64,000 bases of DNA, from IMG/VR virus record IMGVR_UViG_3300021338_000003, positions 1 through 64,000 of that record, one strand, 5' to 3'. Made by a program: the position numbers and the translations under genes. Origin of the DNA: a virus. The notes under the pieces are model-generated. The model had not been told where the DNA came from, made no database searches, and saw only the letters and a program-made list of their open reading frames with translations. Below, one piece after another: positions 805 to 59,107 of this stretch (position 1 is the stretch's first letter; each line of letters begins with the position of its first letter).

Positions 805-809
805 TGTTG

Positions 810-2597: not shown

Positions 2598-2606
2598 TTG
2601 CTCTCC

Positions 2607-2930: not shown

Positions 2931-2938
2931 ATCTTACC

Positions 2939-4231: not shown

Positions 4232-4322
4232 ATTCAAATTTTCCTAATGGTGGCGTCATGGTCGTCATGACGGTTGGTGGGATGGTAACCAAGTGGTGGC
4301 GCCATTTAGGCGATGTGGTGTT

Positions 4323-4343
4323 GTGTTGCAACAATCGCAACAC
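4323..4343 (-). terminator. Weak hairpin after the 4351 gene
   Basis: A 7-bp perfect inverted repeat (GTGTTGC...GCAACAC, 7-nt loop) lies 8 bases beyond the stop codon of the minus-strand gene ending at 4351. There is no clear U-tract, so it may be only a processing or weak termination signal. It falls in the 119-base gap before the single-strand binding gene, which otherwise shows nothing clear. Confidence 0.3.
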
Positions 4344-4350
4344 TCAGAAT

Positions 4351-5016
4351 TTAAGGCACGTCACCCACATAAGAGGGCGCCCACAGAATGTCACAGGTAT
4401 CCGTGCCGTTGGCTTCCAAAAGAACCCCCAGAGAGTAGATACGGGACCCAGTTGCGGAGGGCTCTGTGGTTGTGGCCTTGCCGATTGCATTGGACAGGTA
4501 TACCGGATTACCGACATCCCCAGCCACCGGAGTGGAACTGAACTTCGCCGTCACCTGATGCCCAAAGAAATTGTGGACAGATGCGATATCCCCCGACGAT
4601 GTATCGGCCAGAGCCACTGCTAGGGCATTCTGTCGAGTTCCCACATCATTCGAATCGGCCAAAAGCCAGCCCCCAGCAGGTCCAATGCACAAGATTTCCC
4701 CTGCCGACAGAGATGCTTTGGACTCAATGCGAGGACCACGAAGGGCGGCCCAAAGACCCCTCACCAGGTATCCAATTACGGTCTTGTCAATCTGGGTGAG
4801 GTCTGGTCCGTCGGTAGCAGGGCTGCCCACAGGCTTCGGATTCCAGGCAGCGCCGGCCAGAAATTGATTGCCACTGATGTCTACTGTATTCCAATTGGGA
4901 CTGGACCCTACATCGCCTAGGGATGCCCGAACAACGGACAATCCGGCGGGGTCAGCCAGGTAAGCCTCTTCCACTACCTGAATGATGGCTGCCTTCAAGT
5001 CTGCATACTCGCTCAT
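4351..5016 (-). CDS. Probable virion decoration or capsid-fibre-type protein
   Basis: 221 residues with no enzyme motif. The C-terminal half (about residues 125-221) is Gly/Ala/Thr-rich with short beta-strand patterns such as GNPVYLSNAIGKATTTEPS and SRIYSLGVLLEANGTDTCDI. This is the pattern of small beta-rich domains at the ends of phage head-decoration and fibre proteins, where 'G-x-P-V-Y-L-S' precedes a turn and a 'hGVhL' strand. The N-terminus is helical (MSEYADLKAAIIQVVEEAYL). The stop lies one base upstream in the reading direction from the non-coding gap; the sigma factor gene ends one base before its start region. A structural role is inferred; the exact position in the particle is unknown. 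Confidence 0.4.
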   Translation of the reverse strand: MSEYADLKAAIIQVVEEAYLADPAGLSVVRASLGDVGSSPNWNTVDISGNQFLAGAAWNPKPVGSPATDGPDLTQIDKTVIGYLVRGLWAALRGPRIESKASLSAGEILCIGPAGGWLLADSNDVGTRQNALAVALADTSSGDIASVHNFFGHQVTAKFSSTPVAGDVGNPVYLSNAIGKATTTEPSATGSRIYSLGVLLEANGTDTCDILWAPSYVGDVP

Positions 5017-5017
5017 G

Positions 5018-6310
5018 TTACGACCTCTTCATCTGATCGACCGCAATGAGGGCCATCTGTCGGAGTCTTTCACGGACTATGTCCAGTGGGTACATGTCCT
5101 TACTATCCGGGACAAGGTCAAAGGTACCAAAACAGCAACAGATGACCATTCTTTCTTTGTAGGATAGGGCCGACATGTAGTCACTAGCCTGAGTGGATGA
5201 CTTCCGGGACAACGAGTCCTCTACAGACTCACCTTCGTCTACTACGTTGTCTCGAAGCATGGTGCCAGGGTCGTCTTCGGACAGTGGACTTTCAAGACTG
5301 ACTGGACGATTGATCTGAATGGCCTGCATGACTTCGACCACTTGCTCCTCGGTCATCTTCATTTCTTTGGCGATGGCGGGGATGTCGCCTACAATCCCCT
5401 TGTCGTGGCTCATCTGCTCCATCTTGCGGTACACCTGCCAAAGAGGGGCAGGGATCTTGCACATGTTGGCTTCGGTCTTAAGATGAAGCAGGACCGAAGC
5501 CTGAATCCAGTTGCGAGCCAGTCCCGAAAATGCCTTTTCCCGATTGGGGTCGAAATAATTGGCTGCTCGAACCAAACCAGTGGACCCGTGCTGGAAGTTG
5601 TCGAGTATCTGCTGTTCTGACCTTCCATACTTCCGAGCCATCTGCATCACCAAGCGACGGAAGGAGACCAGAACCTTTGTCCTCATGGCCATAGCAATCT
5701 TCATGTGCCACTGTACCTGCTTGACCACCCCGTAGAAGTGAGTTTGTGTCGCCCCAAACCTTTCCTCCATTGACCTCGCTTTCATTTCCAGTCTTGCTAC
5801 TTCCAGTCTCAACTTCGGTCGAACCCTTTCCCCTATATCCTCAAGTCGTTCAACTTCCAGCCGTTTAGGGATGGCTTGGTCAACATACATGCAGTAGCGC
5901 TTGGTGCTTCGGAGGAATGACTCTCCTAGGATGATATACACTGCATAGACGAAAGGAAGAGATTCCTTGTGTTGAACATAGGGGGATATTGTATCCTTTT
6001 CCTTCATCGCTGAGTGATACATGAAGTCCAAACCCAGCTCAATCAGCAGAACTTCCCGCGGCAGATAATCATCAACTTCATACCCACCCCGCTCTCTGAT
6101 GATGTCCTCCCCGTAGAAGATCGTGACATTTTTGAGAACCTTCGCCGCCATCTTGGTGGTATTCTCAATCATGAAGGCATCGAAGAAGGAAGTATGAGCG
6201 CCTATCAGGTCAGCAACGTCTTCAATCACCTCATAGAACTCATGATACCACCACACCATCTCTCTATGGGGTATCAACGGTGCGTTGTATAGGGTTCCGA
6301 GATTGTACAC
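5018..6310 (-). CDS. Phage-encoded sigma-70-family transcription factor
   Basis: 430 residues. Region 2 is clear at about 215-290: MQMARKYGRSEQQILDNFQ, then HGSTGLVRAANYFDPNREKA and FSGLARNWIQASV, matching the family's 'D..QEG..GL..A...FD...G..FS..A..WI.Q'. Region 3 follows (IPAIAKEMKMTEEQVVEVMQ; PVSLESPLSEDD). A short region 4-like end (SYKERMVICCCFGTFD; VRERLRQMALIAV) replaces the normal helix-turn-helix. The first 200 residues are a long helical extension that I do not recognise. The start is GTG behind a G-rich Shine-Dalgarno site. It presumably redirects host RNA polymerase to a class of phage promoters. The divergent gene at 6359 starts 48 bases away. Confidence 0.85.
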   Translation of the reverse strand: MYNLGTLYNAPLIPHREMVWWYHEFYEVIEDVADLIGAHTSFFDAFMIENTTKMAAKVLKNVTIFYGEDIIRERGGYEVDDYLPREVLLIELGLDFMYHSAMKEKDTISPYVQHKESLPFVYAVYIILGESFLRSTKRYCMYVDQAIPKRLEVERLEDIGERVRPKLRLEVARLEMKARSMEERFGATQTHFYGVVKQVQWHMKIAMAMRTKVLVSFRRLVMQMARKYGRSEQQILDNFQHGSTGLVRAANYFDPNREKAFSGLARNWIQASVLLHLKTEANMCKIPAPLWQVYRKMEQMSHDKGIVGDIPAIAKEMKMTEEQVVEVMQAIQINRPVSLESPLSEDDPGTMLRDNVVDEGESVEDSLSRKSSTQASDYMSALSYKERMVICCCFGTFDLVPDSKDMYPLDIVRERLRQMALIAVDQMKRS

Positions 6311-6358
6311 TAGACCCCCCTAGGTCCTACAGGTTAAAGGAAACACACGGGTAACCGC

Positions 6359-6979
6359 ATGCCTGAAAACATACCGAAGCTGAACCTCGGTCAGATAATA
6401 CGCCTTACACCCAAGCAGATACGCCAAAGGGGCGTCAGGACGTGCTCAGTGAGGGTGTCCAGGGTGTCCGTTGAACTCGATGACTTCGGTGCCTCGAAGG
6501 TTGTCCAATCGCGTTCGCTCTGTATTGACAGAGTACACGTTTCCTCTATTCGATTCTACCATTCGGAAGGAATTCCATCCTCCCTGGTAGCACTTCGAAA
6601 CCTCCGTCGAGAAATCCCAACGGGCCGGGAACTCTACGGAGTACCGGTATGGGTATCCTGTGATTGTGAATGGTTTCTGTATGACTGCGAGGTTGCCCTG
6701 AACCGCTATGGGTGCACAGACATCCGGTTCTCCAACGGTGACTACCCCGTTGTACGAAACAGTGGGATGGTCCCTCGCCTATGCAAGCATCTGATTGCAT
6801 TGGCTCCGCTCGCCGTGGCGGCCAAGGAGAAGAGCAACCGGCCGGTGTCTTCTCCTACGTACCCTGTGCGACCTGGACCATTGCCCAGTCAGCTGCAACG
6901 TCAACTTGAAAGGGCCAAAGACCTTCCGAGTAGGGAAGAACTCGATGAAGCCATGAAGGGTGTCACCGATTTTCTTTGA
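6359..6979 (+). CDS. SWIM-like zinc-finger protein
   Basis: 206 residues. A C-x-C ... C-x-H signature typical of SWIM zinc fingers is visible: VSCDCEWFLYDCEV (about 105-118), then about 30 residues later RLCKHLIAL (about 146-154). SWIM domains bind DNA or protein. The C-terminal 40 residues are Pro-rich then helical (LERAKDLPSREELDEAMK). It is divergent from the sigma factor gene and overlaps the convergent gene ending at 6963 by 17 bases. The specific role is unknown. Confidence 0.5.
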   Translation: MPENIPKLNLGQIIRLTPKQIRQRGVRTCSVRVSRVSVELDDFGASKVVQSRSLCIDRVHVSSIRFYHSEGIPSSLVALRNLRREIPTGRELYGVPVWVSCDCEWFLYDCEVALNRYGCTDIRFSNGDYPVVRNSGMVPRLCKHLIALAPLAVAAKEKSNRPVSSPTYPVRPGPLPSQLQRQLERAKDLPSREELDEAMKGVTDFL

Positions 6980-7250: not shown

Positions 7251-7287
7251 GAATCACCTCTAATGGATGGAGTTTAGTGGAGACTGC

Positions 7288-8115
7288 ATGCCCGAATGGC
7301 CCGAAGTCAAAGTGGTAGTCCACCAGCTCCAAAGACTGGTAGGGTCTGTCACTTCAAGATCCTGGTCCAACTCCAAGTACAACCCAGGCAGAAAACTCGG
7401 CGGGATAGAAGGACTGAAGGTCAAGAGAATCCGGCAGCGGGCCAAGTTCATCGAATTTCACCTTCGGCAAGGTTCGACCCGCAAAGTAGTCATCTTCCAT
7501 CTTGGCATGTCAGGAAAGCTTGGTATCGTTCCTCTGAGTAGCCCAGCTCTACAGGGTGTTCACTGCCACGCGTGGATGGCTTTCGAACACAAAGAGGCCC
7601 TAGTGTTCGTGGATCCCCGAAAGTTCGGGCGGGCCATGGTCATTGAAGACCCCAGCGTATATCGCTTCGAGTTATACAAAAATATAGGCCCCGAAGCGGC
7701 GGCTATTGACTTCAACACCTTTCACAGTCGCGTGTCCCAGAAACCGAAATGGACGGTCAAGAAGGCTTTGCTTGACCAAAGCCTGGTTTCAGGATACGGC
7801 AATATATATGCGAATGAAATCTTGCATTATGCCCAGGTTCATCCCCACTCAAGGATAGAGCTTGTTCCCCGAGAGCGATGGTTGGCAATCCACGGAGCAA
7901 CCCCACGTCTGTTTGACCATGCCTTCCGATGCGGAGGTTCTAGTCCCCAAAGCTTCCGAGGGCCAAATGGCGAGTCGGGGACCTTCCAAAACCACCACAG
8001 GATATACGGAAGGGAGGGAAAACCTTGTAACAGGTGTGGCAGGCCCATAATGAAAGGGTACCTCGATGGGAGGAGCACCTTTTGGTGCCAATGTTCAACA
8101 ATCTTCGATTATTAG
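7288..8115 (+). CDS. mutM: Formamidopyrimidine-DNA glycosylase (Fpg/Nei family)
   Basis: A base-excision-repair glycosylase and AP lyase that removes oxidised bases; 275 residues, the usual Fpg length. The start is fixed by chemistry: the family needs Pro directly after the initiator Met, and this ATG gives M-PEWPEV (Pro2, Glu3) behind GTGGAG. Other family features are IRQRAKFIEFHL (conserved Lys loop), HLGMSG, VDPRKFGRA, QSLVSGYGNIYANEIL (helix-two-turn-helix) and a C-terminal zinc finger YGREGKPCNRCG...FWCQC. The last cysteine pair is C-x-C instead of the usual C-x2-C. An open ATG 7 codons upstream would remove the N-terminal proline and is rejected. Its presence suggests the phage protects or edits its own DNA. 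Confidence 0.93.
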   Translation: MPEWPEVKVVVHQLQRLVGSVTSRSWSNSKYNPGRKLGGIEGLKVKRIRQRAKFIEFHLRQGSTRKVVIFHLGMSGKLGIVPLSSPALQGVHCHAWMAFEHKEALVFVDPRKFGRAMVIEDPSVYRFELYKNIGPEAAAIDFNTFHSRVSQKPKWTVKKALLDQSLVSGYGNIYANEILHYAQVHPHSRIELVPRERWLAIHGATPRLFDHAFRCGGSSPQSFRGPNGESGTFQNHHRIYGREGKPCNRCGRPIMKGYLDGRSTFWCQCSTIFDY

Positions 8116-27374: not shown

Positions 27375-30300
27375 GTGCCAGTAGACAGACCATCCTGGAC
27401 CGAGAACTTTGTTGAGGCTCTCCTGAGGTATGGCCTCAAAAAGCGCTACGTTAATACGGTTGTACCCGCAGCACCAAATATCTCTTCAATCACGGTAACC
27501 CCCATGGGCCCCGTCCGAGTAGGAGATGTCCTTACAGCTGTAGTCAATCTCACTTGGACCCCCACCGGGTCCCTAACATACCAATGGCGGGTGGGCGGCG
27601 TTGACCAGCCCGGAGAAACCAACCCTACGTATACTACGACGGCTGCCGGTGACGTCACAGTATACGTGGTGGCCACCAATACCGAGGGATCCGACAATCT
27701 CGAAAGTGACACAGTGCGGGTCAACTCTGAGGTGACCATCGCCATGATGGGGGATGTCAACTCGGTTGGTGGCCACTCGGATACCTCCAGTGATGCTGGG
27801 CTATTGGGTGCATGGTATGAATACCGAAATTCCGGAGGCGCCACTACCATACCCACTACTGGATTTGGTCCCGCCCTAGGAGTCACGCAGAGCTTGGCTT
27901 CGGCCAGCCAATTCGTCCAGCTGGCTGACCACTCTGTATCCGGGGCTACCCTATCCGATTGGGCCTCAACCCACGAGGCAACTTGGTACGCTGTCATCGA
28001 TGCCATGACATCGGGTGACACCCCCACCGATGTAATAATCACCCACGGCGAGGAGGATGCTAAGACTCTTTCTGATGCCGATGCATATGAAGCCAACCTC
28101 CTGGCGCTCATATCCCGGATTCGGGCATTGTATGGTATAGCAGTACGCATCCACCTTTGCTCTCTGCGATCCCTGCCCCTCGGTACATACCCCTATTGGG
28201 CCACAGTACAAGCCGCCCAGGCTGCCGTGGTTGCTGCTGACCCCTTAGTGTTTGCCATCAATCCAGCCGGATTCCCTAAGGTAGACCCTGTTTCGTATAC
28301 TGGAGAGGGCCAGCGAGACCTTGGGCAGGCATATGCTACCTCAATAGTCGATGAGGGAGGAGCCATTACTATTCTCCCCCGTTTTGTGGGTGGAACCATC
28401 GATCCTTCCTCTCCCCTTGAGGGGCAAACTCTCACCGCCACTATGAGGTGGGCCGGTACGTATCCACAGTCCTATGCCTCCCAATGGTCCGATGATGGGG
28501 TAGAACTCTCGGGAGAAACTTCTGAAACCCTAGTGGCAGCCCCAGAGGGCACCGTAGAACTCAACCAGGATGCCACCAATAGCGTCGGAACCGTATCCGG
28601 AAACGTGTCTACCACTGTCGGGGCCGTGGCCTCTTTGGGTAGTGCCATTAAGAGAAAAGCTCTGGGAGACGACTATATTATCACTGCCGGTCAAGTCACT
28701 ACGGTCAGTGACACCGTTGCTTTTGTCCTATTCGAGCTTGATGATTTTTCAGGGTCTGATGGAACCATCATCGACTTTGGTATTGATGGAAGCACCGGAT
28801 CACCCTTCCGGCTGTCTATCACCGGAGAATCCAGTCTCCAACTCGAATACAGAACCAACTCTGGACTGCAAACTCTGGCCCTTGCTACTTCCGTTGATAC
28901 CTTCTATGACGGCGCCCAACACCTGGTATGGATTCGAATTCAAGACGGCACTCCGGGAACCGTTCGAATGGGCATCGCCGCTACTGGTGGGGATGAAGCC
29001 ACTGATTCCCGGCCCGAAGGTATCACTTCCGGGCTGACCAGCGCCGCAGCCGCTTTGTTTGCTGACATTACCACTCCAGCCCGAGAAATGGCCGGAGCTG
29101 TGTCAGCAGTGGTTATTGATGGCTGGATCACAGACACCCGAGTTGATTCCCTACACACCTCCATCGCTGGGGTCAGTGGTTCTCTATCTTGGGTCGTATT
29201 CCTGTCCGAACTGGATTCTCATATGACCGCCGAGGGGTCTACGTACATTTGGTCTCCTATTGCGGATATTGGTGACATCACTGTTGCTGGTGATGTCACT
29301 GATAACTCTGGGACCTTCAGTCACACCCTGGTGTCCGGTATCAATAATACGGCCGGATGGCCTTATGCCGAAGGATTCAGTCAGTCCACGTTGTCACTGA
29401 GCGGAGGAACTCACATCCAAGGGTCCTCTACATATGCAGTGTCTGATACCATGACCCTCCTATGGTACGGAAATGTTCAAAGCCTTGGTATTTTGGACGG
29501 GTTTCTAGCCGGAGCGGTCCCGGACTCCGGCGAATTTGGTGTGGCCATACGGTATACCGACAGCGCGACCATCCAGGCTATTTGGAGAGATGGTGGGGAC
29601 AATCTTGTCACCCAAGACCATACTGTGGAAAATATATCGACAGCCGATCGAGATTTGCACTTTGTGGCTGCCAATCCATCGTGGGGCGTACGGGTTGGTA
29701 TGGCCCATATGACTGCCCAGAGTTATTATTCTGAGAATTCTACAACTGTTGCTGCTGGCACTTCCCCTCACGGTCCAGGCTTCGGTTCTCCACATACCTC
29801 TACCTCGCAGACAAACCCCACCCTGCGAGGGGTTACATATGAAAACGCTTGGGCGCTGCAAATCAACCGAGACCTCACTGATGACGAGTGGGAAAGGGCT
29901 CGTAGAGGTGATTGGTTCTGGGCCTACGGAGATGCTTCCGTAGCGTGGATTGTTGTTCCGACTACAGACCTGGAAATCGGAGAGACCATCAGTGATTCAA
30001 AGGTAGACCAATCTGAACTCACAATGGTTGTTGATGGACATCAAAGTACCCTTTCTGGACAAATATCAGGGGATGATGTTATACCTCCTACCCCCACTGC
30101 CCCAGTCATTCTAGATATAAGCATAGACTGGACAGACGCTGATGCTGATACAGACCCCAACGTCGGGGACACTTTCTTCCCTATATTTTCGACCACTGGT
30201 GACCCAACTCCTGTTCTGTCGTACGAATGGTTCCTGGGCGCCGTGTCCCAAGGCACGACAACCTCCCTCGTGGTTGGGTCTGATGGAAGCTTGACTGTTG

Positions 30301-31139
30301 ATATAGAGGCTACAAACAGCGAGGGTACTGATAGCGATACATCAGCAGCCGTTATAGTGTTGGCCAGTGCATCCGGCCTGGCTCCAGACGAAGTATCAGG
30401 ACTATACTTGTGGGAGGATGGATTTGACTCAGCCACCTACAATGGGTCTAATGAGCTTACTGGTATTACGGACAAAGGCCCAAATGGTATTGATATCACG
30501 CCTGACTCCGGTACTGGTCCGACCCCTACCTCATATGAAGTGGATGGGGTCCCAACTGATCTTCCAGGGCCCTTCACGGTTGCGCTTCCTACTAACCATC
30601 CCGAAAGCGCTACCGGACTCGCCAAGGTATTCACCGATATTACCGTTATGGCTATTGTACCAACCATAACATCGCAAACAAATGGTACTGCGATGTTTAG
30701 TATGTATGGCGATGACGGCGGCGGTGCCAACTATCAACTTGTTCTAGGCCAGGGTCCAACCCCTGATGATATTCAAGCGTTTATGCAAGGAGGGTCTATT
30801 GAAATACCGGTTGACTGGTCAACCGGTAACAATGGGTCTCATGCCATCGTGTTCTTTCGCAGGCAGGCAGGGGTTGACCTCTATCTTGACAGCTGGTATG
30901 ACAACCTGTCAGGTGGAGGAATAACAAAACCCGCACAGGTTACATACGGGTCAGACCCGACTACCGGTACCATGACTATTGACAGTGTAGCGTTCGGGGG
31001 TAGAGGGTCCATTACACAAGTGTGGGTAGGAAACCCCATACATATGGTTGCCGTATGGGACGAGTATGTCAGTGATGGAGACATTGTATCCCTGGCCCAA
31101 TGGGCAGGATCCCGACTTGGATTCACCGGAATATCGTAG
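27375..31139 (+). CDS. Giant fibre protein with Ig-like, SGNH-like and LamG-like domains
   Basis: 1254 residues, GTG start behind CGGAGAAG. Domains by eye: Ig-like about 35-115 (LTYQWRVGGVDQPGETNPTY); an SGNH/sialate-O-acetylesterase-like domain about 118-330; Ig-like about 335-410 (YASQWSDDGVELSGET); LamG-like units about 420-860; a third Ig-like about 890-985 (LSYEWFLGAVSQGTTTSLVV); a final LamG-like domain 985-1254 homologous to one in the preceding gene (HAIVFFRRQAGVDLYLDSWY). In the SGNH domain the GQSN nucleophile block reads GDVNS and the D-x-x-H block reads DPVSY (S307), so Ser and His of the triad are lost. It probably binds rather than deacetylates surface sugar. Confidence 0.65.
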   Translation: MPVDRPSWTENFVEALLRYGLKKRYVNTVVPAAPNISSITVTPMGPVRVGDVLTAVVNLTWTPTGSLTYQWRVGGVDQPGETNPTYTTTAAGDVTVYVVATNTEGSDNLESDTVRVNSEVTIAMMGDVNSVGGHSDTSSDAGLLGAWYEYRNSGGATTIPTTGFGPALGVTQSLASASQFVQLADHSVSGATLSDWASTHEATWYAVIDAMTSGDTPTDVIITHGEEDAKTLSDADAYEANLLALISRIRALYGIAVRIHLCSLRSLPLGTYPYWATVQAAQAAVVAADPLVFAINPAGFPKVDPVSYTGEGQRDLGQAYATSIVDEGGAITILPRFVGGTIDPSSPLEGQTLTATMRWAGTYPQSYASQWSDDGVELSGETSETLVAAPEGTVELNQDATNSVGTVSGNVSTTVGAVASLGSAIKRKALGDDYIITAGQVTTVSDTVAFVLFELDDFSGSDGTIIDFGIDGSTGSPFRLSITGESSLQLEYRTNSGLQTLALATSVDTFYDGAQHLVWIRIQDGTPGTVRMGIAATGGDEATDSRPEGITSGLTSAAAALFADITTPAREMAGAVSAVVIDGWITDTRVDSLHTSIAGVSGSLSWVVFLSELDSHMTAEGSTYIWSPIADIGDITVAGDVTDNSGTFSHTLVSGINNTAGWPYAEGFSQSTLSLSGGTHIQGSSTYAVSDTMTLLWYGNVQSLGILDGFLAGAVPDSGEFGVAIRYTDSATIQAIWRDGGDNLVTQDHTVENISTADRDLHFVAANPSWGVRVGMAHMTAQSYYSENSTTVAAGTSPHGPGFGSPHTSTSQTNPTLRGVTYENAWALQINRDLTDDEWERARRGDWFWAYGDASVAWIVVPTTDLEIGETISDSKVDQSELTMVVDGHQSTLSGQISGDDVIPPTPTAPVILDISIDWTDADADTDPNVGDTFFPIFSTTGDPTPVLSYEWFLGAVSQGTTTSLVVGSDGSLTVDIEATNSEGTDSDTSAAVIVLASASGLAPDEVSGLYLWEDGFDSATYNGSNELTGITDKGPNGIDITPDSGTGPTPTSYEVDGVPTDLPGPFTVALPTNHPESATGLAKVFTDITVMAIVPTITSQTNGTAMFSMYGDDGGGANYQLVLGQGPTPDDIQAFMQGGSIEIPVDWSTGNNGSHAIVFFRRQAGVDLYLDSWYDNLSGGGITKPAQVTYGSDPTTGTMTIDSVAFGGRGSITQVWVGNPIHMVAVWDEYVSDGDIVSLAQWAGSRLGFTGIS

Positions 31140-31148
31140 GAGAGACCG

Positions 31149-31556
31149 ATGACATACGCTATTTTTCTATCTTTGTCCTGGGCAAACCCCAGTATTGAGC
31201 AAGTCCAGAAGGAAAACCTCACTCTCAGGGCAGCCATTGAAGACTACCAGAAGTCCAACGAAGCTCTAGAAGAAGCCGTCGAAGCTCTTCAATCTCAAAA
31301 TAAGGAGCTTCGGCTATCTATTCGAGAATTTGAAACAGCCACTCGAAGTTTCGAGGACACTTTGAAAGCCAAAGAGGAACTCATCATCCTCCATAAGAGC
31401 CGTGCTGATGCGGCTGAAAAATGGGCCGAGCGAAGTGAGGAACTCCGAAGGAAAGAGATCAATTCTCCCGACCTCGGCAAGGCTGAACGGTTGATTTGGG
31501 CTGGTGCAGTGGTAATCACTACTGGGTATGCTCTGATTCAAAAACAAGGAGGATAG
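31149..31556 (+). CDS. Coiled-coil protein with terminal membrane segments, spanin-like
   Basis: 135 residues behind TAGGAGAG. N-terminal hydrophobic start (MTYAIFLSLSWANP, signal-like), a heptad-rich coiled coil at about 17-100, and a C-terminal membrane helix (LIWAGAVVITTGYALI, about 114-129). It is paired with a second coiled-coil membrane protein one base downstream. The pairing suggests lysis (spanin) or envelope function, but topology is not that of a classical i-spanin. Confidence 0.45.
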   Translation: MTYAIFLSLSWANPSIEQVQKENLTLRAAIEDYQKSNEALEEAVEALQSQNKELRLSIREFETATRSFEDTLKAKEELIILHKSRADAAEKWAERSEELRRKEINSPDLGKAERLIWAGAVVITTGYALIQKQGG

Positions 31557-31557
31557 C

Positions 31558-31908
31558 GTGGAAATCGAATTCAATTCCCTGTGGGGTATCATATTAGCTG
31601 TTGTTGCGGTTGCCATAGGGGTTGTGGGGTCCAACCTCAAAAAGTGGAAGTCCAACAGAGATGCTCACAGGGCCCTGGAGGAGTACAACAAAGCCCGTGA
31701 AGATATTGAGAATAGTGTCTCAATAGTTAGCGAAAGAGCCAAAAGGTCCGAGAAAACAGCCCAAGAAGCACTTGGAAGGGCCCGGAAGGGTGTCGAAATA
31801 GCTGATGCCATAGGACCGAAGGCCGACAGACTACTCCAGGAGGCCCGAGAAGCTCGCTTGCGGGCTGAAAAACATCTAGATAGCCTTGACGACAAGAAGG
31901 ACGTCTGA
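31558..31908 (+). CDS. N-terminally anchored coiled-coil protein, inner-spanin-like
   Basis: 116 residues; GTG start behind AGGAGGATAGC. One N-terminal transmembrane helix (GIILAVVAVAIGVVGS, about 10-25) followed by a long charged coiled coil (about 28-112). This is the i-spanin plan: membrane anchor inside, coil across the periplasm. No lipoprotein partner is embedded or adjacent; the lipoprotein at 8124 is a distant candidate. Confidence 0.5.
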   Translation: MEIEFNSLWGIILAVVAVAIGVVGSNLKKWKSNRDAHRALEEYNKAREDIENSVSIVSERAKRSEKTAQEALGRARKGVEIADAIGPKADRLLQEAREARLRAEKHLDSLDDKKDV

Positions 31909-32635: not shown

Positions 32636-32899
32636 ATGGGCCGTACTTCGTTGTCACAATATAGCGCGTTGGAACTTCTGGAAGAGCTGCAGAAGAGAGG
32701 ATACTTGGTTGCCCATGATGTCCACAAAGTCAAACAGCGTGTTCGGGTGACAGACCGCTTCAGACACCTCATGAGAAAGCACCTGGGTCCAACCGTCCTA
32801 GAAGAAGAGATGACGTCCAGGTCGAGGTCGAATTTTGAGCGATTCCTATTCCCGACAGGTATATTGACATGTCAAAACGATCGCGAAGGTGGCTTCTAG
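32636..32899 (+). CDS. Hypothetical protein, 87 aa
   Basis: ATG behind CCGGAGGGCCAT, giving MGRTSLSQYSALELLEELQK. Helical and basic (HKVKQRVRVTDRFRHLMRKH). The last 25 codons overlap the first TTGACATGTCAA palindrome, so the true end of function may be earlier. No family recognised. Confidence 0.5.
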   Translation: MGRTSLSQYSALELLEELQKRGYLVAHDVHKVKQRVRVTDRFRHLMRKHLGPTVLEEEMTSRSRSNFERFLFPTGILTCQNDREGGF

Positions 32900-32951
32900 G
32901 TTGATTGTGCCATTCAATAATGCAACACATTGTTGCATTTTGACATGTCAA
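32864..32951. repeat. Two copies of the perfect palindrome TTGACATGTCAA
   Basis: Copies at 32864-32875 and 32940-32951, 76 bases apart, with a one-mismatch copy (TTGCCATGTCAA) at 33166-33177. A 12-bp perfect palindrome repeated in a non-coding gap is typical of an operator for a dimeric DNA-binding protein. The winged-helix protein at 15991 is one candidate reader. Confidence 0.55.
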
Positions 32952-33222
32952 TGGCACTCTGAGACCAGTCAATAGGGGATAGAAAACCCCTAAGCGGTAG
33001 GGTCAGAACTTCCCAAAACGTCTCAGAAGACCCAGAAATGCACTGGATACGGCCCAAAGCCCTTCGTGTATGACCGCGAGCTTTTTGTAGGCCCCAGAAA
33101 ACGTCCAGGCCATACATGAAGGGGCTTCTCAAAATGCTCTTTCTGACACTGATCGTTCCCAGATATTGCCATGTCAATTCTCCGAACACACTGAGCCATA
33201 AGGCATGCATGGACCAACCTTT

Positions 33223-33247
33223 GGGGAGGGGGGTTTGGGGGGTGGGG
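33223..33247 (+). other. Strong G-quadruplex motif
   Basis: Four G-runs of 4, 6, 6 and 4 with loops of 1, 3 and 1 bases. Loops this short favour a very stable parallel quadruplex in single-stranded DNA or RNA. Directly after it, C-runs (CCCACCCCACCCCC, ending about 33267) could instead pair with it as a GC hairpin. Confidence 0.75.
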
Positions 33248-33296
33248 CGGTTCCCACCCCACCCCCGATCCCAAGATCGATCTCCCCTGGTGGAAA

Positions 33297-33548: not shown

Positions 33549-34373
33549 ATGTTTGACTGTCTCCTCCAAAAACGTGTTATGGTCCATATCATCCCGGCGG
33601 TTCTGATGTTGGGAGCAATTTCCTTTCTGCCCGAGAAAGGAATAGTCCACGGTCCATGCACTACCCTTCCCATTTGGGTACGTCAGGTTTGGGCATTCAC
33701 CGGGTTTTTGACCTGGATATCGTATGGGGAAATAGCCTATCAGGCATGGACCCTTCATGACCATCCCTCCACTTCCTGGCTACCCCGCTGGCTTTTGCCG
33801 GGGGTTACCCTTTTTGTGGGTACTTGTGGTCTGGGTCACCTTCTAGCTTCCGTGGGCCTTCAGTTTTGGGCCCGTTGGGACCTCGTCGCATTCTGGCAGG
33901 GTATTACTGCCGCCATATCGGTCCCTGTTGCTCTCGCTATTGCCCTTGGTTCCAACTCCCTGAAGCACGAGGCCATGATCGCCTCGTGGGGTCTGCATGA
34001 AACTCTTGTGAACCTGGGCCGATCTTTTGTCTACCGGGTTCGCCCAGATAACACCATCGTTTTTTCTATTGGCGACGGGTGGAAGCTTCCTGCGTTTCGT
34101 AAGTTTGCCCCCAACGGGTTTCTTGAAGACCCAGAACTCATGCACCTTTCAAAATGGATTGATGAAGGTTCTATTCTCCGAGACACCAACATTGATCAAG
34201 TTCGAAAGACAAAAAAGCAACATGAGTGGGTATCCCGCTCATATGGCTATACCTGGTTGAATACCGCCCGACCCCTCCCGGGCGGTGACATCGTTATCGA
34301 AGTCCAAAACGCGTCCAAAGTGGCGTCGGAGGAACGATATCGGATTATGGATGAAGTATTGGGAGAGGAGTAG
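33549..34373 (+). CDS. Ethylene-receptor-like membrane domain plus PAS-like domain
   Basis: Up to 274 residues; the start is uncertain (ATGs at 33549, 33579 and 33606, none with a clear Shine-Dalgarno). Four membrane segments: about 11-27, 46-68 (VWAFTGFLTWISYGEIAYQ), 79-104 (LLPGVTLFVGTCGLGHLLAS) and 113-134 (LVAFWQGITAAISVPVALAI). The last three resemble the ethylene-sensor domain of ETR1-type receptors, including the C-x3-H copper-ligand pair (C93, H97; CGATH in ETR1), although the Asp of the first helix is replaced. A soluble domain at about 150-265 (RSFVYRVRPDNTIVFSIGDG; WLNTARPLPGGDIVIEVQNA) looks like a PAS domain. No kinase domain follows. Unusual for a phage; homology is by eye. Confidence 0.5.
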   Translation: MFDCLLQKRVMVHIIPAVLMLGAISFLPEKGIVHGPCTTLPIWVRQVWAFTGFLTWISYGEIAYQAWTLHDHPSTSWLPRWLLPGVTLFVGTCGLGHLLASVGLQFWARWDLVAFWQGITAAISVPVALAIALGSNSLKHEAMIASWGLHETLVNLGRSFVYRVRPDNTIVFSIGDGWKLPAFRKFAPNGFLEDPELMHLSKWIDEGSILRDTNIDQVRKTKKQHEWVSRSYGYTWLNTARPLPGGDIVIEVQNASKVASEERYRIMDEVLGEE

Positions 34374-34376
34374 CCC

Positions 34377-35117
34377 ATGAGCTTGGACAAAACACCTGAC
34401 CTTCCGCCTCTACGGGAACCGAGGAGGGAAGAACTCTCGGACTCGGAGCGGATCGACCAAACCATTCGCGTGCTCAGTGCTGTACGCGGCGAATTGAAAA
34501 GTGTGTCTGTGCAGGTGGCTTCCCTCAATGGGCACATAGCCACCGAGATATCAGCTCTTACTACTTCTATTACGACGTTGAGTAGTCGCATCCGAACCTT
34601 GGAATCACACCGTCAAGACGAAGAAAGAGACAACGAAATACACCAAGCCAAAAGGGAAGCCAAAAGGGAGGGTAGGGATGAGGGGTATATCCAGGCAGCC
34701 CAAGACATTGCTGCCCGTCTCGGCATCAATACCGAGGATGTCTTGGCTATGCGTCAGTCAGATACCTTGGTCCCCAGGGCCCGGGACCATGGACCATCTA
34801 TCCCTACTAACCCTGGAACCGCAACCCCACTATCCGAGAAAAAACCGCACTGGGTCATCCAGGCTGTTGGGACCTTTTTCTCCAATACTATCAGCCTAGC
34901 TGGCACCGAGGGCGGGAAACGTCTGATTGTAGGGGCCGTCGCTTTGGGCCTCGGTCAAGACGCTATTATTACTCTTGGGAAAATCATAGAGAAAATAGAC
35001 CCAACGCCAGCCCAAGTGGTATCGGTTGAAGTTGGCAACCCAGATACAGATGCGGACGCCGACGTTGACATAACCGAAAGTGACGCCGATACAGATGCCG
35101 ATGGGGGACCACGGTGA
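34377..35117 (+). CDS. Coiled-coil protein with acidic tail, 246 aa
   Basis: ATG behind GGAGAGGAG. Helical coiled coil about 20-110 with a highly charged stretch (HQAKREAKREGRDEGY), a possible membrane or hydrophobic segment (about 180-200, RLIVGAVALGLGQDAII) and an Asp/Thr repeat tail (NPDTDADADVDITESDADTD). No family recognised. It lies between the sensor-like and ADP-ribosyltransferase-like genes. Confidence 0.5.
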   Translation: MSLDKTPDLPPLREPRREELSDSERIDQTIRVLSAVRGELKSVSVQVASLNGHIATEISALTTSITTLSSRIRTLESHRQDEERDNEIHQAKREAKREGRDEGYIQAAQDIAARLGINTEDVLAMRQSDTLVPRARDHGPSIPTNPGTATPLSEKKPHWVIQAVGTFFSNTISLAGTEGGKRLIVGAVALGLGQDAIITLGKIIEKIDPTPAQVVSVEVGNPDTDADADVDITESDADTDADGGPR

Positions 35118-36286
35118 ACATACTGCGCAAGACGATTCTGGCCAGGTTTGATAGCATACTGCTATACCATGGAACCGACGCCTATAACGTTGAATCCATT
35201 CTCCGTCAAGGCTTGAAACCCCGTGGGTCAGTGGGCAACCTGGGTTGGGACAAGAATACCCTCGTCGACGTGAGAAACAATTCTGTGTTTCTCACAGCTG
35301 ACATCGAAAAGGCCGCTCGATATTCTTTTGGTGAAGAGAAAGACCAGGTACCAGCCATCCTTGAAATTCGCATTTCTGGACGCCATGCCCAAAAACTCAA
35401 GTATGATCCTCTTGACCGTAATGATGCTGCATGGGAAATAGACGATGAGGGCGGAACTGATTTTGAAGCCCTCGTTATACTAGAAGACATTGCTAGTGAT
35501 GCCATACGTAACATCACTGGTCACAAACCCCACTTTTCGGTTAGGGGACTACCTCAATTCCATGAGGTAGAGGATTTGGATGGGGTTAATGTCTACAAGG
35601 TCCTACCTCAAGCCATCCTGAAGGTGCTAGACTCGAACTGGATTACTAGGAAGGATGTGGTTCGGGCTATACAGGATGCACTTAAGAAGTGGGGTAGGGC
35701 CAACAAGAGAACCCCTGGGCAGTACCAGTCAATCAGTATTCACCCATACCTAGACGTGCGAAGAGACGGCACTATCAAAATGTCCAAAGACTGGATGGAA
35801 ACCCGAGAACAATTGTTCTATCAAAAGGGGTTACCCCCAAGTACTATCAAAGGTGTGTGGTTTAGGGAGATTGACTTTCGATCATCTGGTATTAATCAGA
35901 TGAAGGTCGATGAAAAGTCATTCGGGGTCAGACGCCTACCATACGAGGTGGTCGAGGACCATCAGACATCCATAGAAATCACCAACAAAATCATCAGAAA
36001 AGAATATTACACAGTCGACATGCTATATCGGAATTCGGAAGATTTTTTGGTAGTATCCGACCACCTGGAGAATATGGGCCTCGAAAGATGGGAAGAAGTA
36101 GACCATCTTCAGACTCTGACCCGGGAAGAAATCGAGGAGGATTTTGAATCCTTGATAGACACTCTTGCTGAAAGTGCAATCTATATACAGGATGACCTCC
36201 ATAACAGTCACGGAAATGACCCTGCTATTCATGAAGATTTGTGGATTCTCGTAAACCCTAGGGATGCCATGGAGCTTGTGTCATGA
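35114..36286 (+). CDS. ADP-ribosyltransferase-fold protein
   Basis: 390 residues; the GTG start overlaps the preceding stop (GTGA). The first 120 residues show the ART pattern: SILLYHGTDAYNVESILRQG (His19 of the HG(T/S) strand), SVFLTADIEKAARYSFG (the 'VYLT....A..YA' block), and an acidic segment near TDFEALVILED that could supply the catalytic Glu. T4-type phages use ARTs to modify host RNA polymerase; a similar host-takeover role is inference. The C-terminal 250 residues are unrecognised, with HPYLDVRRDGTIKMSKDWME and an acidic helical end. KptA-type RNA phosphotransferases share this fold and cannot be excluded. Confidence 0.55.
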   Translation: MNILRKTILARFDSILLYHGTDAYNVESILRQGLKPRGSVGNLGWDKNTLVDVRNNSVFLTADIEKAARYSFGEEKDQVPAILEIRISGRHAQKLKYDPLDRNDAAWEIDDEGGTDFEALVILEDIASDAIRNITGHKPHFSVRGLPQFHEVEDLDGVNVYKVLPQAILKVLDSNWITRKDVVRAIQDALKKWGRANKRTPGQYQSISIHPYLDVRRDGTIKMSKDWMETREQLFYQKGLPPSTIKGVWFREIDFRSSGINQMKVDEKSFGVRRLPYEVVEDHQTSIEITNKIIRKEYYTVDMLYRNSEDFLVVSDHLENMGLERWEEVDHLQTLTREEIEEDFESLIDTLAESAIYIQDDLHNSHGNDPAIHEDLWILVNPRDAMELVS

Positions 36287-36819
36287 AATCCAAGTATAAC
36301 CTCGCCGTTCCCAAGTTAGCCAAAGCTTGGGGAATTGTTGAGAAAATGGGAAAGTCCGAAAACCCCGAGGTACTTGGGTTTCATGAAGAGCTTATCAAGG
36401 CCCTCGATACGTCCAAGTGGACAGACGCCGAAGACCAGATGCTCGCGAAGGTGACCGAGAGGGCCAATTATCTGCGGCACGTGTTGGACATGCACTTCGC
36501 CAAGGACACGGCACAGGGGAAATGGAACCCTGATGTTCCATCAACAGGACACTGTGCTGTTGCGGCCATAATCGGACACTGGATGTTCAGGTGGCGGGTT
36601 GGCAGTAGTATAGTCAATCAGGCCAGTCACTGGTACAACATGGCCCACGGTCTCACTATTGATATCACCGGTGACCAATTCGGAAAGCCTGAAGTCCAAG
36701 TGTCCCGAAGCATCTTGTATCCGCACAAGCACCGTGTTCGCGCTATCAGTGAGGCCAATGAAGAGACCATCAGGCGCGCCAACTTGCTAGCCCAACGAGC
36801 CGGATTGGTATATTCATGA
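36283..36819 (+). CDS. YunG-like Cys-His-Asp protein
   Basis: 178 residues; the ATG overlaps the preceding stop (ATGA). The core pattern STGHCAVAAII (C91), ASHWYNMAHG (H116) and LTIDITGDQFG (D127) matches a family I associate with YunG-like proteins, in which Cys, His and Asp line up as in transglutaminase/papain-type folds. It could be a cysteine peptidase or amidase, or a binding protein of that fold. Its place in an operon with an ART-like gene suggests an accessory effector role. Confidence 0.5.
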   Translation: MKSKYNLAVPKLAKAWGIVEKMGKSENPEVLGFHEELIKALDTSKWTDAEDQMLAKVTERANYLRHVLDMHFAKDTAQGKWNPDVPSTGHCAVAAIIGHWMFRWRVGSSIVNQASHWYNMAHGLTIDITGDQFGKPEVQVSRSILYPHKHRVRAISEANEETIRRANLLAQRAGLVYS

Positions 36820-54815: not shown

Positions 54816-57767
54816 ATGTTTGAAGACGATCCAAAGCGTAATCTCATTGAGGATGCGCGTGTGTGGATCTCGGGGGTCGAGGTAACCTCCCGCTTGACCT
54901 CGGCTGTCACCATCACCAAGGTAGGAAGGGGTAGCCATAACACTGTTCAGTTCACCCTATCGAACGCTTCGGATGGGTTCGTCCTTAATGAGAGGAACCT
55001 TGATTCCAGCTTGCCTCTGAATGAGCGGTTCTATACTGGTGGCAGTCCAGCCGAGCATGGTGAGAGCATCAAGCTCGCAATGTTCCAGTACAAGAACGAT
55101 GAAACCAGAAATCCAATTGATGAGCAGACCGGAGAGCGACGGTGGCCCCTATCGGTCAACTCGACCATTCTCCACTCCCTGGACACCATCTTTGTGGCGG
55201 AACGTTGGCCCTATAGTCAACAAACCCTCTACTATCCAGCGTTCAAAGGATATGTCGAAACCAAAACCATCTCGGAAAACTTCGTCAATGGACAGTCCAA
55301 CATTACGGTCACTGGCTTTGACATCCGGGCTTTGATATCTCGGATGCGGCTTCAGATGAATTACGTCATCACCAACGCGTTGGCTCCGGTGTCTTTCAAT
55401 TCTGGAGCCACGTCCAATGCTGATACTCTGAATGCCTTCGACCCAGTGGTTCAGGAGGGTATATTCTCGGACCTTCAGAATCCGAGCCAATGGACCACTC
55501 CTGTCGCTGGTCTGTCCCTCAAGGATACCATCGAGTTCTTGGTGACTGGAACCATCACCGAGACCGAAGAGATCCAAATTCCTGGGTATTCTAGCGAAAT
55601 TCGGGACAAAATTCTCTCTACTTCTCGGGAGGAAGTGGCCCGCAGGGGTGTGGGCCGAATGAAGACTGGTATTGTTGTTTCCTATCCCAATGGGGGCGGG
55701 GAGAGTGCCAACGATGTGAGGATTTTGGAGGAATGGCACCGCCTGTGCCTATTCGGGGTACCCGATCAGGGGGACGATCTCGAAGTATCCGACGAGGCTC
55801 AAGATGCGGTGTCGGCTGACCTTCCCGACGAGGATGCCGACACTTTGAATCTCACCCTAGGCCAGCGCCTGTTGTTCTCCACCTCAAGCCGGCCCTGGAC
55901 CCCAGAAGAGACCGAGCGTCACGGCCAAGGAAGCACCTGGGATGGCCCTACAGCCCCTCATGCTATGTCTCTCCATTTCCTATTGCCTTCTACTGGCGGA
56001 GGCATGAATGGGGTCACATCCTTCACGGTGGACCAGGGTTCTGATGAAAGACGTTGGCAGAGCCGGATGTCTATTATAGAGGATTATCTCGACAACCTGG
56101 ACTACCACATCGCGGTGACTGGCGCCGGGGATATGGTCATCGAATTTCCAATGTATGACTTCCAGCCGGACAGGTTTGGTGAATTCGAGGAGGCATTTCG
56201 AGTTCGGCACGATGGGGAAGGAAAGTCCATCACCTTTGATGATGACCGACCCAACGTCCCAGCCTGCATGATCATGACTGCAGGGTACAACCCAGATGTA
56301 GAGAGGATAGGGCAACTTGAGGACGCGGCCGTGGAAGAGGAATTCACCTCGGTGTTGCGAGTCGTCCTCCTGGCCCCTGTCGTGGCGTCCCGTATTGGGA
56401 TGAATATCGAGCGAACGTCCCTGCCGTTTGCATTGGATGACGTTTGCCGTCTCCGTCAATTCGCCGTCTTGCGATTCCAAAGGAAGCTTGCTGAGGCCAA
56501 CAACCTTGCGGTTGACTTGGTTTATCGACCACTCCTGTTCCCAAATCGGCCGCTCCACGAAAGCAAGCGGGACCGGATGGGGTGGATATCCCAGGTGACG
56601 TCCACCGTCCCCCCCTCTCGTATGCACATGGGACACGCCACCATTGGTGCTGTCCTGAAGTACGTCCGAAAGCCGGTTACCTTGGCCAACGGTGACATCG
56701 AATACCGTCTCATCACGGGCTCGAAGACGCTTCCTCTCTCGTACACCGGAGAGGGTCCGGCCATGAACTCGTCCCGGGGTATTCTTATTTCGGACACGAG
56801 CCCTACGGACTTGGACATCACTGCCGACCCGTGTGATGGGTCCACCCGCGGTGCCCCTGCGGTTGACTACTTGTCCTTGGACAATGCCATCGGCTTGGTA
56901 TTTGATGAGAATGCCGCCCAATCTTGCTCTAAGAGTGCCGATGACTTGGCAGCCGACGTTCGGTCTCTGTGGGAGCGTCTCCAGCAGCTGGCGTTGGACG
57001 AGTTGCGCCTGAGGCTGGAGCTTACGTGTACGTTCCGTGACCCAGTGGTGGACACGAACGAGCCGTTTGACCCTGACCTTCACTCCATATATCCTGCCCG
57101 GGCTTTTGACCTTGTGGTGTACCGGTGGGACTTCTCGGCTGGTACCCAGGAGGATTACGAAGCTGTTGGGGCCCTAGGAAAGTCCATCGGTCTACAATGG
57201 GGAGGAGATGCTCCTACTTTCGAGTCGGCTCCCACTATTGCCGATGTGCAGGAAAAGATCTTCGAGCGAGTGAACTTCCACCTATCCAACACCAGCACCC
57301 GGTTCAAGGACGGAGGGTCTGGTACTCCCTACATATATGGCGGAGCGTTCAACAAGCAAGACCCATCCCCTAAGTCCATTGGGGTTGATTGCTCCGGTCT
57401 GATCGTTGACTGCTATGTGTACGCTGGTCTGATGAGCCGGGATACCCGCCCAAACTCAAGCCAGCTTGCTGGTATCTTTCCCTCGACCGACAACCCCAGA
57501 CCCGGGGACATCCTGTTTGTAGGCAAGGGGCGAATCACCCATTGCGTGCTTATTGGTGAAGCTGGGTATCCCTCAGTGGTTGGTGCTTCGGGTGGAACCA
57601 AGGACACAACCACCCTCAAGAAGGCAAGTGACAAGAATGCTCGGGTGAAGACTTTCAGCAATTACGTTCCGGGAATTCGCCCCGAGTCTGAAGTCCAGGG
57701 TTTTGCCACACCCTTCGACAACCTCGTGTCCAGTATTCCCTTCCTAAACCACTTCAGTCTCCCGTGA
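54816..57767 (+). CDS. Baseplate hub protein with C-terminal NlpC/P60 peptidase
   Basis: 983 residues. The first part (about 1-620) is a beta-rich hub-type region: WISGVEVTSRLTSAVTITKV with YYPAFKGYVETKTISEN and VTGFDIRALISRMRL. The C-terminal 130 residues are an NlpC/P60 domain: PYIYGGAF, IGVDCSGLIVDCYVYAG (Cys859), PGDILFVGKGRITHCVLIGE (His909). Such domains cut peptidoglycan cross-links, so the tail tip would open the cell wall at injection. An acidic linker (EDADTLNLTLGQ) is near 340. It heads a structural run to 62998. Confidence 0.75.
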   Translation: MFEDDPKRNLIEDARVWISGVEVTSRLTSAVTITKVGRGSHNTVQFTLSNASDGFVLNERNLDSSLPLNERFYTGGSPAEHGESIKLAMFQYKNDETRNPIDEQTGERRWPLSVNSTILHSLDTIFVAERWPYSQQTLYYPAFKGYVETKTISENFVNGQSNITVTGFDIRALISRMRLQMNYVITNALAPVSFNSGATSNADTLNAFDPVVQEGIFSDLQNPSQWTTPVAGLSLKDTIEFLVTGTITETEEIQIPGYSSEIRDKILSTSREEVARRGVGRMKTGIVVSYPNGGGESANDVRILEEWHRLCLFGVPDQGDDLEVSDEAQDAVSADLPDEDADTLNLTLGQRLLFSTSSRPWTPEETERHGQGSTWDGPTAPHAMSLHFLLPSTGGGMNGVTSFTVDQGSDERRWQSRMSIIEDYLDNLDYHIAVTGAGDMVIEFPMYDFQPDRFGEFEEAFRVRHDGEGKSITFDDDRPNVPACMIMTAGYNPDVERIGQLEDAAVEEEFTSVLRVVLLAPVVASRIGMNIERTSLPFALDDVCRLRQFAVLRFQRKLAEANNLAVDLVYRPLLFPNRPLHESKRDRMGWISQVTSTVPPSRMHMGHATIGAVLKYVRKPVTLANGDIEYRLITGSKTLPLSYTGEGPAMNSSRGILISDTSPTDLDITADPCDGSTRGAPAVDYLSLDNAIGLVFDENAAQSCSKSADDLAADVRSLWERLQQLALDELRLRLELTCTFRDPVVDTNEPFDPDLHSIYPARAFDLVVYRWDFSAGTQEDYEAVGALGKSIGLQWGGDAPTFESAPTIADVQEKIFERVNFHLSNTSTRFKDGGSGTPYIYGGAFNKQDPSPKSIGVDCSGLIVDCYVYAGLMSRDTRPNSSQLAGIFPSTDNPRPGDILFVGKGRITHCVLIGEAGYPSVVGASGGTKDTTTLKKASDKNARVKTFSNYVPGIRPESEVQGFATPFDNLVSSIPFLNHFSLP

Positions 57768-59107
57768 GTCCAATGATCACTGCAGCCACTGGTCCGGCCC
57801 CGGATTCGCAGAATATCGCCCTGAAGACCAAAGAGGAATTCCTGAAGAGTAGGAATCCTAGAGGCAAGTTTCATGACCCCAAGTCCTATGACCAAGGATT
57901 AGAGGAACTCAATCGCGACTATAAGCGACGAGGTATTGGGGAAATCTCATATGGCCATGACCAACTTTTGGTGGAGGAAACATCCGATGGTCTGTTTCTC
58001 AACCACCGGCAACGTGGACCAGTGGCCTACCTGTATGACACCATCCTATACCACATCCATGGCTTCAACCCAGGCCGATTGGCTGACCGATATTGGTCCG
58101 AGGAGTGGACCTCAAGCGATAACGACTGGGTGAATTTTGCTTTCTCCCGGTCTGTGAAGGTCAAATATCTGGCTGAGGTGGTTGAGGCAAAAAGTAGTCA
58201 AGGCCGACGTATGAGGAGGAAATATCCTCGTGTTCTGCAACGCCTGAAGAGAAAGAAGCAAGAATTTGAGCTTCGCCAGGGTGCCGAAGACCAACCGTTA
58301 GGTATGAATCTTGCCATCCTCAACGGTAAGGGGGAGGTAGTGGCCGTGGCTCAGAATGAATGGGGTGCCACTCTGGTCATTGTGGCCCGAGAATACCGAG
58401 GTATGGGCCTCGGCCAGTATATCACCGAGAAGTGGTATGAGATGAACCCTCAGAACGAGTCTGGCGGATTCACTCCTCAAGGGTACAACAACGCCATCCG
58501 AGTGTGGGAGAAGGCCGTCCGTGACCTCTTGGCGCGGGGCTGGTATTCCCAACTGGTTAGAGATGGGTCCTTGACCCAAGAGAAAGCGCAGGATATCATC
58601 TCCGGGCTGTCTGACTCCAAGGTTCAACGGTCTAACATACCGGAGCCTAGTCAAGAGGAGGTTGCGAAGGCCAAGCCTCTAATCCTTGTGGATGACAACA
58701 TCTCCTTCGTATTGTATGACGCTAGGGTATACGAAGGGTCGGTCGATGACGTTTATGACGGAAAGTACGTATATGGCTACGGATTTCTGCGTGATTCCGG
58801 CGACAAAACCTTCATCTTCTCCTTGGACTATGACCGACCATATGCCAGGTTGGCCACGGCCATTATCATGCAGATGGCCAGAGACGAAGGTGAGGATCTC
58901 TATGACGGAGAAGGATACCACGACCTCGTAGAATTTGATCTCCTACCTGGGGGATCTTGGGAACGAGATGGTGACCTGGTAAGGTTGAAGGAAGACCTTC
59001 TGGACCTTGAGGGGGCGGCCATTATTGAAAGAAACATTCGGAACGCCAACGACAAGTATGGGATGTACCGTACGTCTCTCCTAGAAACGGCAAACAGTAA
59101 GTGGTGA
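57764..59107 (+). CDS. GNAT-like acetyltransferase-fold protein in baseplate block
   Basis: 447 residues, GTG overlapping the hub stop (GTGA) or ATG at 57773. The centre (about 180-250) reads LAILNGKGEVVAVAQNEWGA, LVIVAREYRGMGLGQYITEK, which has the GNAT motif A '(Q/R)-x-x-G-x-G/A' as RGMGLG, with YNNAIRVWE near the acetyl-CoA helix. The first 170 residues (GPVAYLYDTILYHIHGF...) and the last 190 (YVYGYGFLRDSGDKTFIFSL) are unrecognised. Enzymes embedded in tail genes are sometimes injected; what it would modify is unknown. Confidence 0.5.
   Translation: MSPMITAATGPAPDSQNIALKTKEEFLKSRNPRGKFHDPKSYDQGLEELNRDYKRRGIGEISYGHDQLLVEETSDGLFLNHRQRGPVAYLYDTILYHIHGFNPGRLADRYWSEEWTSSDNDWVNFAFSRSVKVKYLAEVVEAKSSQGRRMRRKYPRVLQRLKRKKQEFELRQGAEDQPLGMNLAILNGKGEVVAVAQNEWGATLVIVAREYRGMGLGQYITEKWYEMNPQNESGGFTPQGYNNAIRVWEKAVRDLLARGWYSQLVRDGSLTQEKAQDIISGLSDSKVQRSNIPEPSQEEVAKAKPLILVDDNISFVLYDARVYEGSVDDVYDGKYVYGYGFLRDSGDKTFIFSLDYDRPYARLATAIIMQMARDEGEDLYDGEGYHDLVEFDLLPGGSWERDGDLVRLKEDLLDLEGAAIIERNIRNANDKYGMYRTSLLETANSKW

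Follow-up and report, generated by a model that had tools for sequence, protein, structure and literature searches.

The gene at positions 33549-34373 (plus strand) of a giant-phage genome encodes a 274-residue membrane protein, P0001, whose profile matches point to a divergent ETR1_N domain. Judged from sequence, its homology to the ETR1_N (ethylene-receptor N-terminal domain) family is highly probable. The best explanation overall, which we favour with a confidence a little short of even, is that P0001 is a kinase-less member of this family that would serve as a membrane sensor tuning lysis or some other late membrane event. The virus record comprises 250,817 bases, and the window, the whole stretch of DNA that was analysed, covers its bases 1-64000. 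Phage genes in the window include those for a DnaB-like helicase, an exonuclease, a clamp loader, a sigma factor and tail-type proteins, and the protein encoded at 57764-59107 has matches, among deposited phage records, only in Agrobacterium phage Atu_ph07 and Salicola phage SCTP-2. The phage also encodes a formamidopyrimidine-DNA glycosylase-like protein (7267-8115; PF01149, E=2e-19, and H2TH).

The P0001 reading frame gives the best codon-usage fit to the phage's other genes (0.138 bit per codon, with the other five frames at -0.06 to -0.52). It starts with an ATG at 33549, before which no clear ribosome-binding site was seen, and contains further in-frame ATGs at 33579 and 33606. Upstream lie about 1.2 kb without a clear gene. 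This non-coding stretch holds three copies of the palindrome TTGACATGTCAA (32864-32875, 32940-32951 and 33166-33177), and near-copies at 46014 and 47942 bring the total in the window to 5, where 0.16 would be expected; the palindrome is possibly the operator of a phage regulator. A strong GC-rich inverted repeat, GGGGGTGGGGCGG/CCACCCCACCCCC, occupies 33238-33266 of the same stretch.

The only Pfam match of P0001 was to ETR1_N (PF25487; residues 47-132, E=5.3e-4), with a score of 20.7 bits (22.9 in another scan) that lies below the curated cut-off of 27 bits. For this reason, and because coiled-coil proteins of the same window gave chance Pfam matches about as strong, the Pfam score is insufficient by itself. 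Alignment by hhalign of P0001 with 81 ethylene-binding domains scored 33.3, with 200 shuffles reaching at most 23.6, and takes in an HGxC motif that had not been used when the domain was first noticed. A profile of 13 phage members, built without P0001 and without two kinase-bearing sequences (L122 and L128) that may be host sequence, scored P0001 at 34.5 bits (E=4.7e-9), the top of 5,000 shuffles being 16.0. A mostly cyanobacterial domain profile scored it at 7.5 bits, not above shuffles, so that the link between P0001 and ETR1_N runs through the phage relatives. Direct searches with P0001 of viral contigs, phage records and the PDB returned nothing, and no P0001-like gene was found in six kin phage records identified via a clade-marker protein.

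The ETR1_N-like membrane core spans residues 29-137 (33633-33959, plus strand), as delimited by hhalign (29-130), the phage profile (33-137) and Pfam (47-132); profile A6, of which the P0001 row is itself part, matched the window at 33627-33980. In the alignment, the HGxC motif (His34-Gly35-Pro36-Cys37; 33648-33659, plus strand) precedes helix 1. Alignment and model together place three helices on the same strand: helix 1 at residues 42-70 (33672-33758), with Gly52 (33702-33704) at the position of ETR1 Asp25 and a conserved Tyr59; helix 2 at residues 82-106 (33792-33866), with Cys93 (33825-33827) and His97 (33837-33839); and helix 3 at about residues 110-135 (33876-33953), with an invariant Ser124. 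An aromatic residue stands at His+13. The spacing in P0001, HGxC-x55-CGxxH-x12-W, has one residue more than the HGxC-x54-CGxxH-x12-W of 80 fetched loci.

The earlier note had proposed that a phage encodes a membrane domain with a copper site of the ethylene-receptor type, and the profiles, the motif geometry and the relatives described below all support this. The details on which it relied are present as described: CGLGH (Cys93-x3-His97), the third-helix A-x-S/V stretch (TAAISV) and, at the position of the helix-1 Asp, Gly52. The profile search that it had suggested came out above shuffles with the phage profile and hhalign and under the cut-off in Pfam, and Cys93 and His97 lie on one predicted helix (82-106), so that the outcome it had set as a refutation did not occur. 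Seven residues (Cys37, Tyr59, Phe89, Cys93, Gly94, His97 and Ser124) are invariant in P0001 and the 13 phage relatives, and the same columns stay invariant when eleven bacterial domains are added.

With a single sequence, the predicted structure had a confidence of 43; an alignment of 24 rows lifted this to 67, and the ten-residue blocks of the membrane helices lay at about 66-87. The predicted helices are 42-70, 82-106 and 110-159, the third helix continuing unbroken into the C-terminal part. The model agrees with an ETR1_N domain; it depends on the alignment and so gives no independent support. The soluble C-terminal domain (33960-34370, plus strand) has no family assigned by profile scans and a low-confidence model. 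No kinase was found in P0001 in Pfam, PHROGs or NCBIfam scans, as the earlier note had also held. Its reading of the C-terminal domain as PAS-like is not supported by sequence: Pfam gave no PAS match up to E=10, and a 150-row PAS profile scored 10.7, below the best shuffles (15.9) and far below a control, the PAS protein of another phage contig (L117; 62.9). The strand-strand-helices-strand-strand order of the low-confidence model would fit PAS, and Foldseek against the PDB and viral models gave no usable match for P0001. The idea of a fusion may nevertheless contain a grain of truth, because in L117 the gene for the membrane domain has a true PAS-domain gene (PF00989, E=3e-7) immediately behind it.

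Motif and sequence scans found short, kinase-less ETR1_N proteins on about a dozen phage contigs and in cultured Maribacter phages. Scanning viral contigs for HGxC-x54-CGxxH-x12-W identified real open reading frames in L100, L101, L107 (the same as L003), L111, L112, L113 and L117; 12 of the 19 pattern matches were discarded as chance matches with in-frame stops or as lying in implausible frames. A further scan with an alignment of these members added L126, L127, L129, L130 and L131, as well as the two kinase-bearing cases. In the latter the domain is fused to a histidine-kinase-like part (L122 3962-5086 and L128 3641-4657); both contigs, of 279 kb and 64 kb, are labelled as virus and may be host rather than phage sequence. 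tblastn identified gp065 of Maribacter phages Molly_1 to Molly_5 and Colly_1 as relatives. All ten phage members tested in Pfam exceeded the ETR1_N cut-off (49.1 to 103.8 bits). One jumbo-phage record (L003; IMGVR_UViG_3300045996_002337, 349,660 bases, with terminase matches) encodes at 5953-6372 a stand-alone canonical ethylene-binding domain with Asp, Tyr, Cys and His that scores 121 bits against ETR1_N, and 22 tRNA genes lie within about 5 kb upstream of it. No PHROG holding the phage ETR1_N proteins was found.

The phage versions are stand-alone proteins of 118-289 residues that end after the domain or bear a short unrelated tail; in P0001 and Molly gp065 the C-terminal parts measure about 130-150 residues. 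Among bacteria, the domain was present in 20 of 396 Bacteroidota and 29 of 399 Pseudomonadota genomes, and across these roughly 795 genomes 52 of 53 copies lie in open reading frames of 390-1567 residues. The sole short bacterial copy, a 165-residue protein of Methylobacter psychrophilus (L134, the same as L073) near a contig end, is either truncated or genuinely stand-alone. A tree of 37 rows places the phage members in several positions on long branches, with 7 label changes, 1 of them forced by well-supported branches. The P0001 branch is extreme, at 5.57 changes per column, and its placement is unsure; its identity to host sequences is at most 24%. Taken together, the kinase-less phage ETR1_N proteins look like an undescribed, variable set that includes P0001.

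The surroundings of P0001 contain several candidate membrane-associated proteins, all on the plus strand. The next gene (34377-35117), which starts 3 bases after P0001, encodes in the open-reading-frame list and by profiles a 246-residue coiled-coil protein with a hydrophobic segment; its product is a likely partner of P0001, by analogy with the membrane and coiled-coil genes that are placed in the same way beside the domain in other phages. Upstream, a 135-residue coiled-coil protein with a C-terminal hydrophobic segment (31149-31556) directly follows the gene for a 1254-residue tail-type protein, and a 116-residue protein with one membrane helix and a coiled coil (31558-31908) matches Holin_LLH weakly (PF09682, E=0.0043, below the cut-off). 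We infer that these two genes belong to the neighbourhood set of P0001. By eye, a stretch of the tail-type protein (27375-31139) resembles an SGNH or sialate-esterase-type enzyme, possibly for host polysaccharide. Downstream of P0001 are genes for an ADP-ribosyltransferase-like protein (35114-36286; PARP, PF00644, E=3e-4, below the cut-off) and a YunG-family protein (36283-36819; PF24585, E=1e-12). Among the genes tested in the vicinity of P0001, none was recognised as an endolysin.

In most of the loci read, the domain gene comes after tail genes. One-helix coiled-coil genes adjoin it or lie one gene off in L118, L119, L121, L123, L101/L125, L127, L129, L117 and Molly. In Molly_1, 3 bases separate gp065 (L132 5929-6798; YP_010357114.1, hypothetical protein) from the annotated endolysin gp066 (Amidase_3). 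A GH108 lysozyme gene lies about 1.1 kb downstream of the domain gene in L126 and an N-acetylmuramidase gene about 1.9 kb upstream in L130; weak NlpC/P60 and M15 matches are found nearby in L131 and L101, respectively, and a DUF5675 gene in L127. In the Molly phages, the amidase is the sole lysis gene listed, and proteins with 1-4 membrane helices are described near endolysins (PMC8776804). Counting only endolysins above the Pfam cut-off, 3 of 11 relatives have one nearby (p about 0.05-0.09); with weak matches included the count is 5 of 11 (p about 0.001-0.003), both values assuming a chance rate of 8-10% per gene. A lysis link is thus fairly supported for the phage ETR1_N family. For P0001 itself the link is weak, and its lysis-cassette argument is an analogy with the relatives, because no endolysin was identified among the genes tested near it.

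On this analogy, a sensory or regulatory role of P0001 in lysis or late membrane events is a tentative assignment that we would put below an even chance. P0001 would form a dimer, like ETR1, in the inner membrane of the host and would retain a metal site formed around Cys93 and His97. The state of this site, be it its redox state or the presence of a bound metal or small apolar ligand, would be relayed via the long third helix to the C-terminal domain and to neighbouring phage membrane and coiled-coil proteins, and the relay would tune when lysis or another late membrane event takes place, or whether it does. A bolder and rather doubtful extension is that diverse phages captured the ethylene-receptor sensor domain and, dispensing with the kinase, use it as a membrane switch that responds to metal or gas and times lysis via the membrane proteins encoded nearby; ethylene or copper might then be sensed by members with the full Asp, Cys and His site, and another ligand by those lacking the Asp.

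The same neighbourhoods could be read differently, with the domain re-used as a plain holin, forming pores or membrane lesions, or as an antiholin, with no sensing function and with C-x3-H serving just to keep the helices together. Small membrane proteins of three to four helices beside endolysin genes have the usual place and size of holins, the Molly phages have no other named holin (PMC8776804), and the L121 protein matches a holin family, though faintly (PF07332, E=0.17). However, metal-ligand-type residues are rarely invariant in holins, whereas the members aligned here, although very divergent, all share Cys, Tyr, Cys, Gly, His and Ser. Other holin-like genes adjoin the domain gene in L101, L126 and L127, and P0001 and Molly gp065 carry C-terminal domains of 130-150 residues. 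We consider a plain holin or antiholin unlikely on balance.

The earlier note had suggested that such a protein might let the phage sense or interfere with host signalling, which is possible and not favoured, because the relatives' gene neighbourhoods point to lysis or late membrane functions. In its most specific form, P0001 would be a decoy, forming mixed dimers with host sensor kinases of the same domain, or would otherwise jam host signalling or exclude other phages. The phage forms consist of the sensor part alone, and ETR1-type receptors are established dimers. The low frequency of the domain in bacterial genomes (20 of 396 and 29 of 399 genomes, as above), the distance of P0001 from host sequences and the position of the phage genes after tail genes and often near lysis genes, not in an early or host-takeover region, make this improbable.

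A further reading takes the name of the family at face value: the protein would be a genuine ethylene or copper sensor, by which the phage reads plant, algal or photochemical ethylene, or copper stress, to decide on lysis. It can overlap with the role of membrane sensor and lysis regulator that we prefer. At the seven ethylene-binding positions, which we take to be Asp25, Tyr32, Ile35, Pro36, Ile62, Cys65 and His69 of ETR1, P0001 has four identical residues, Val for Ile62, Gly for Asp and Ala for Pro. Ethylene binding depends on seven conserved residues and occurs in bacterial receptors that have kept them (PMC11819568). In ETR1, Asp25, Cys65 and His69 make up the copper site (PMC12643061), and all three are kept in 9 of the 13 relatives; Asp-bearing relatives include L118 and L121. 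The Asp25 position holds Asp in 80 of 81 members of the bacterial-type set; it is Asn in three phage relatives (L127, L129 and Molly) and Gly in L130 as in P0001, which thus retains Cys93 and His97 with Gly52 in place of the Asp ligand. Ethylene sensing by P0001 is doubtful because it lacks both the Asp ligand and the Pro; with the Asp ligand, ethylene and even copper binding may have been lost, and a Cys/His metal site possibly remains. For P0001, a true ethylene or copper sensor therefore seems improbable as well.

That P0001 is an orphan membrane protein with a chance likeness to ETR1_N is very improbable: its single-sequence Pfam score is under the cut-off and the cyanobacteria-heavy profile ranks it no higher than shuffles, but two profile tests place it far above 200-5,000 shuffles and the motif geometry holds outside the region on which the likeness was first noticed.

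Ethylene-receptor sensor domains are known in plants, some algae and fungi, cyanobacteria and other bacteria, and to our knowledge they always provide the input to a signalling kinase. No paper pairing an ethylene-binding domain with phages was found in the open-access literature; as far as that literature shows, the ETR1_N domain is known and its kinase-less phage form is undescribed. A sensor-only phage family, found in at least some cases next to lysis genes, would put the ethylene-receptor fold to a second use. It would also suggest that, ahead of lysis, phages probe the membrane for a small molecule, a metal or its redox state. The presence of one member in cultured marine phages of a culturable host (Maribacter forsetii) makes this directly testable.

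ETR1_N (PF25487) serves as the sensor domain in ethylene receptors of plants and in ethylene-binding kinases of bacteria, cyanobacteria included, of which SynEtr1 and AzoEtr1 are examples. P0001 shares with it the order of the three helices, an HGxC motif ahead of helix 1, the helix-1 Tyr, the helix-2 C-x3-H, the aromatic residue at His+13 and the helix-3 Ser; it differs in having Gly for Asp, Ala for Pro, one extra residue between motifs and a score below the cut-off. Unlike the ETR1_N kinases, it is phage-encoded, lacks a kinase and has no response-regulator partner in view. AzoEtr1-type receptors combine an ethylene-binding domain, PAS and a histidine kinase (PMC11819568). P0001 likewise places a membrane domain before a soluble one, and L117 has a separate PAS gene after its domain gene, but the soluble domain of P0001 is not PAS by sequence and no kinase follows. 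Several relatives resemble phage holins and lysis-cassette membrane proteins (for example Holin_LLH, PF09682) in neighbourhood, size and helix number; unlike these, they show no holin profile match of note and carry invariant Cys, His, Tyr and Ser residues. The closest parallel in cultured phages is gp065 of Molly_1 and Colly_1. The C-terminal parts of P0001 and Molly gp065 have no detectable likeness, their pairwise E-value is only 0.014, and Molly gp065, unlike P0001, lies directly beside an endolysin gene. Gp065 nevertheless matches ETR1_N (60.9 bits) and shares with P0001 the helix-2 motif (CGIGH, compared with CGLGH), a change at the Asp position (to Asn), a large extra C-terminal part and a place after the tail genes.
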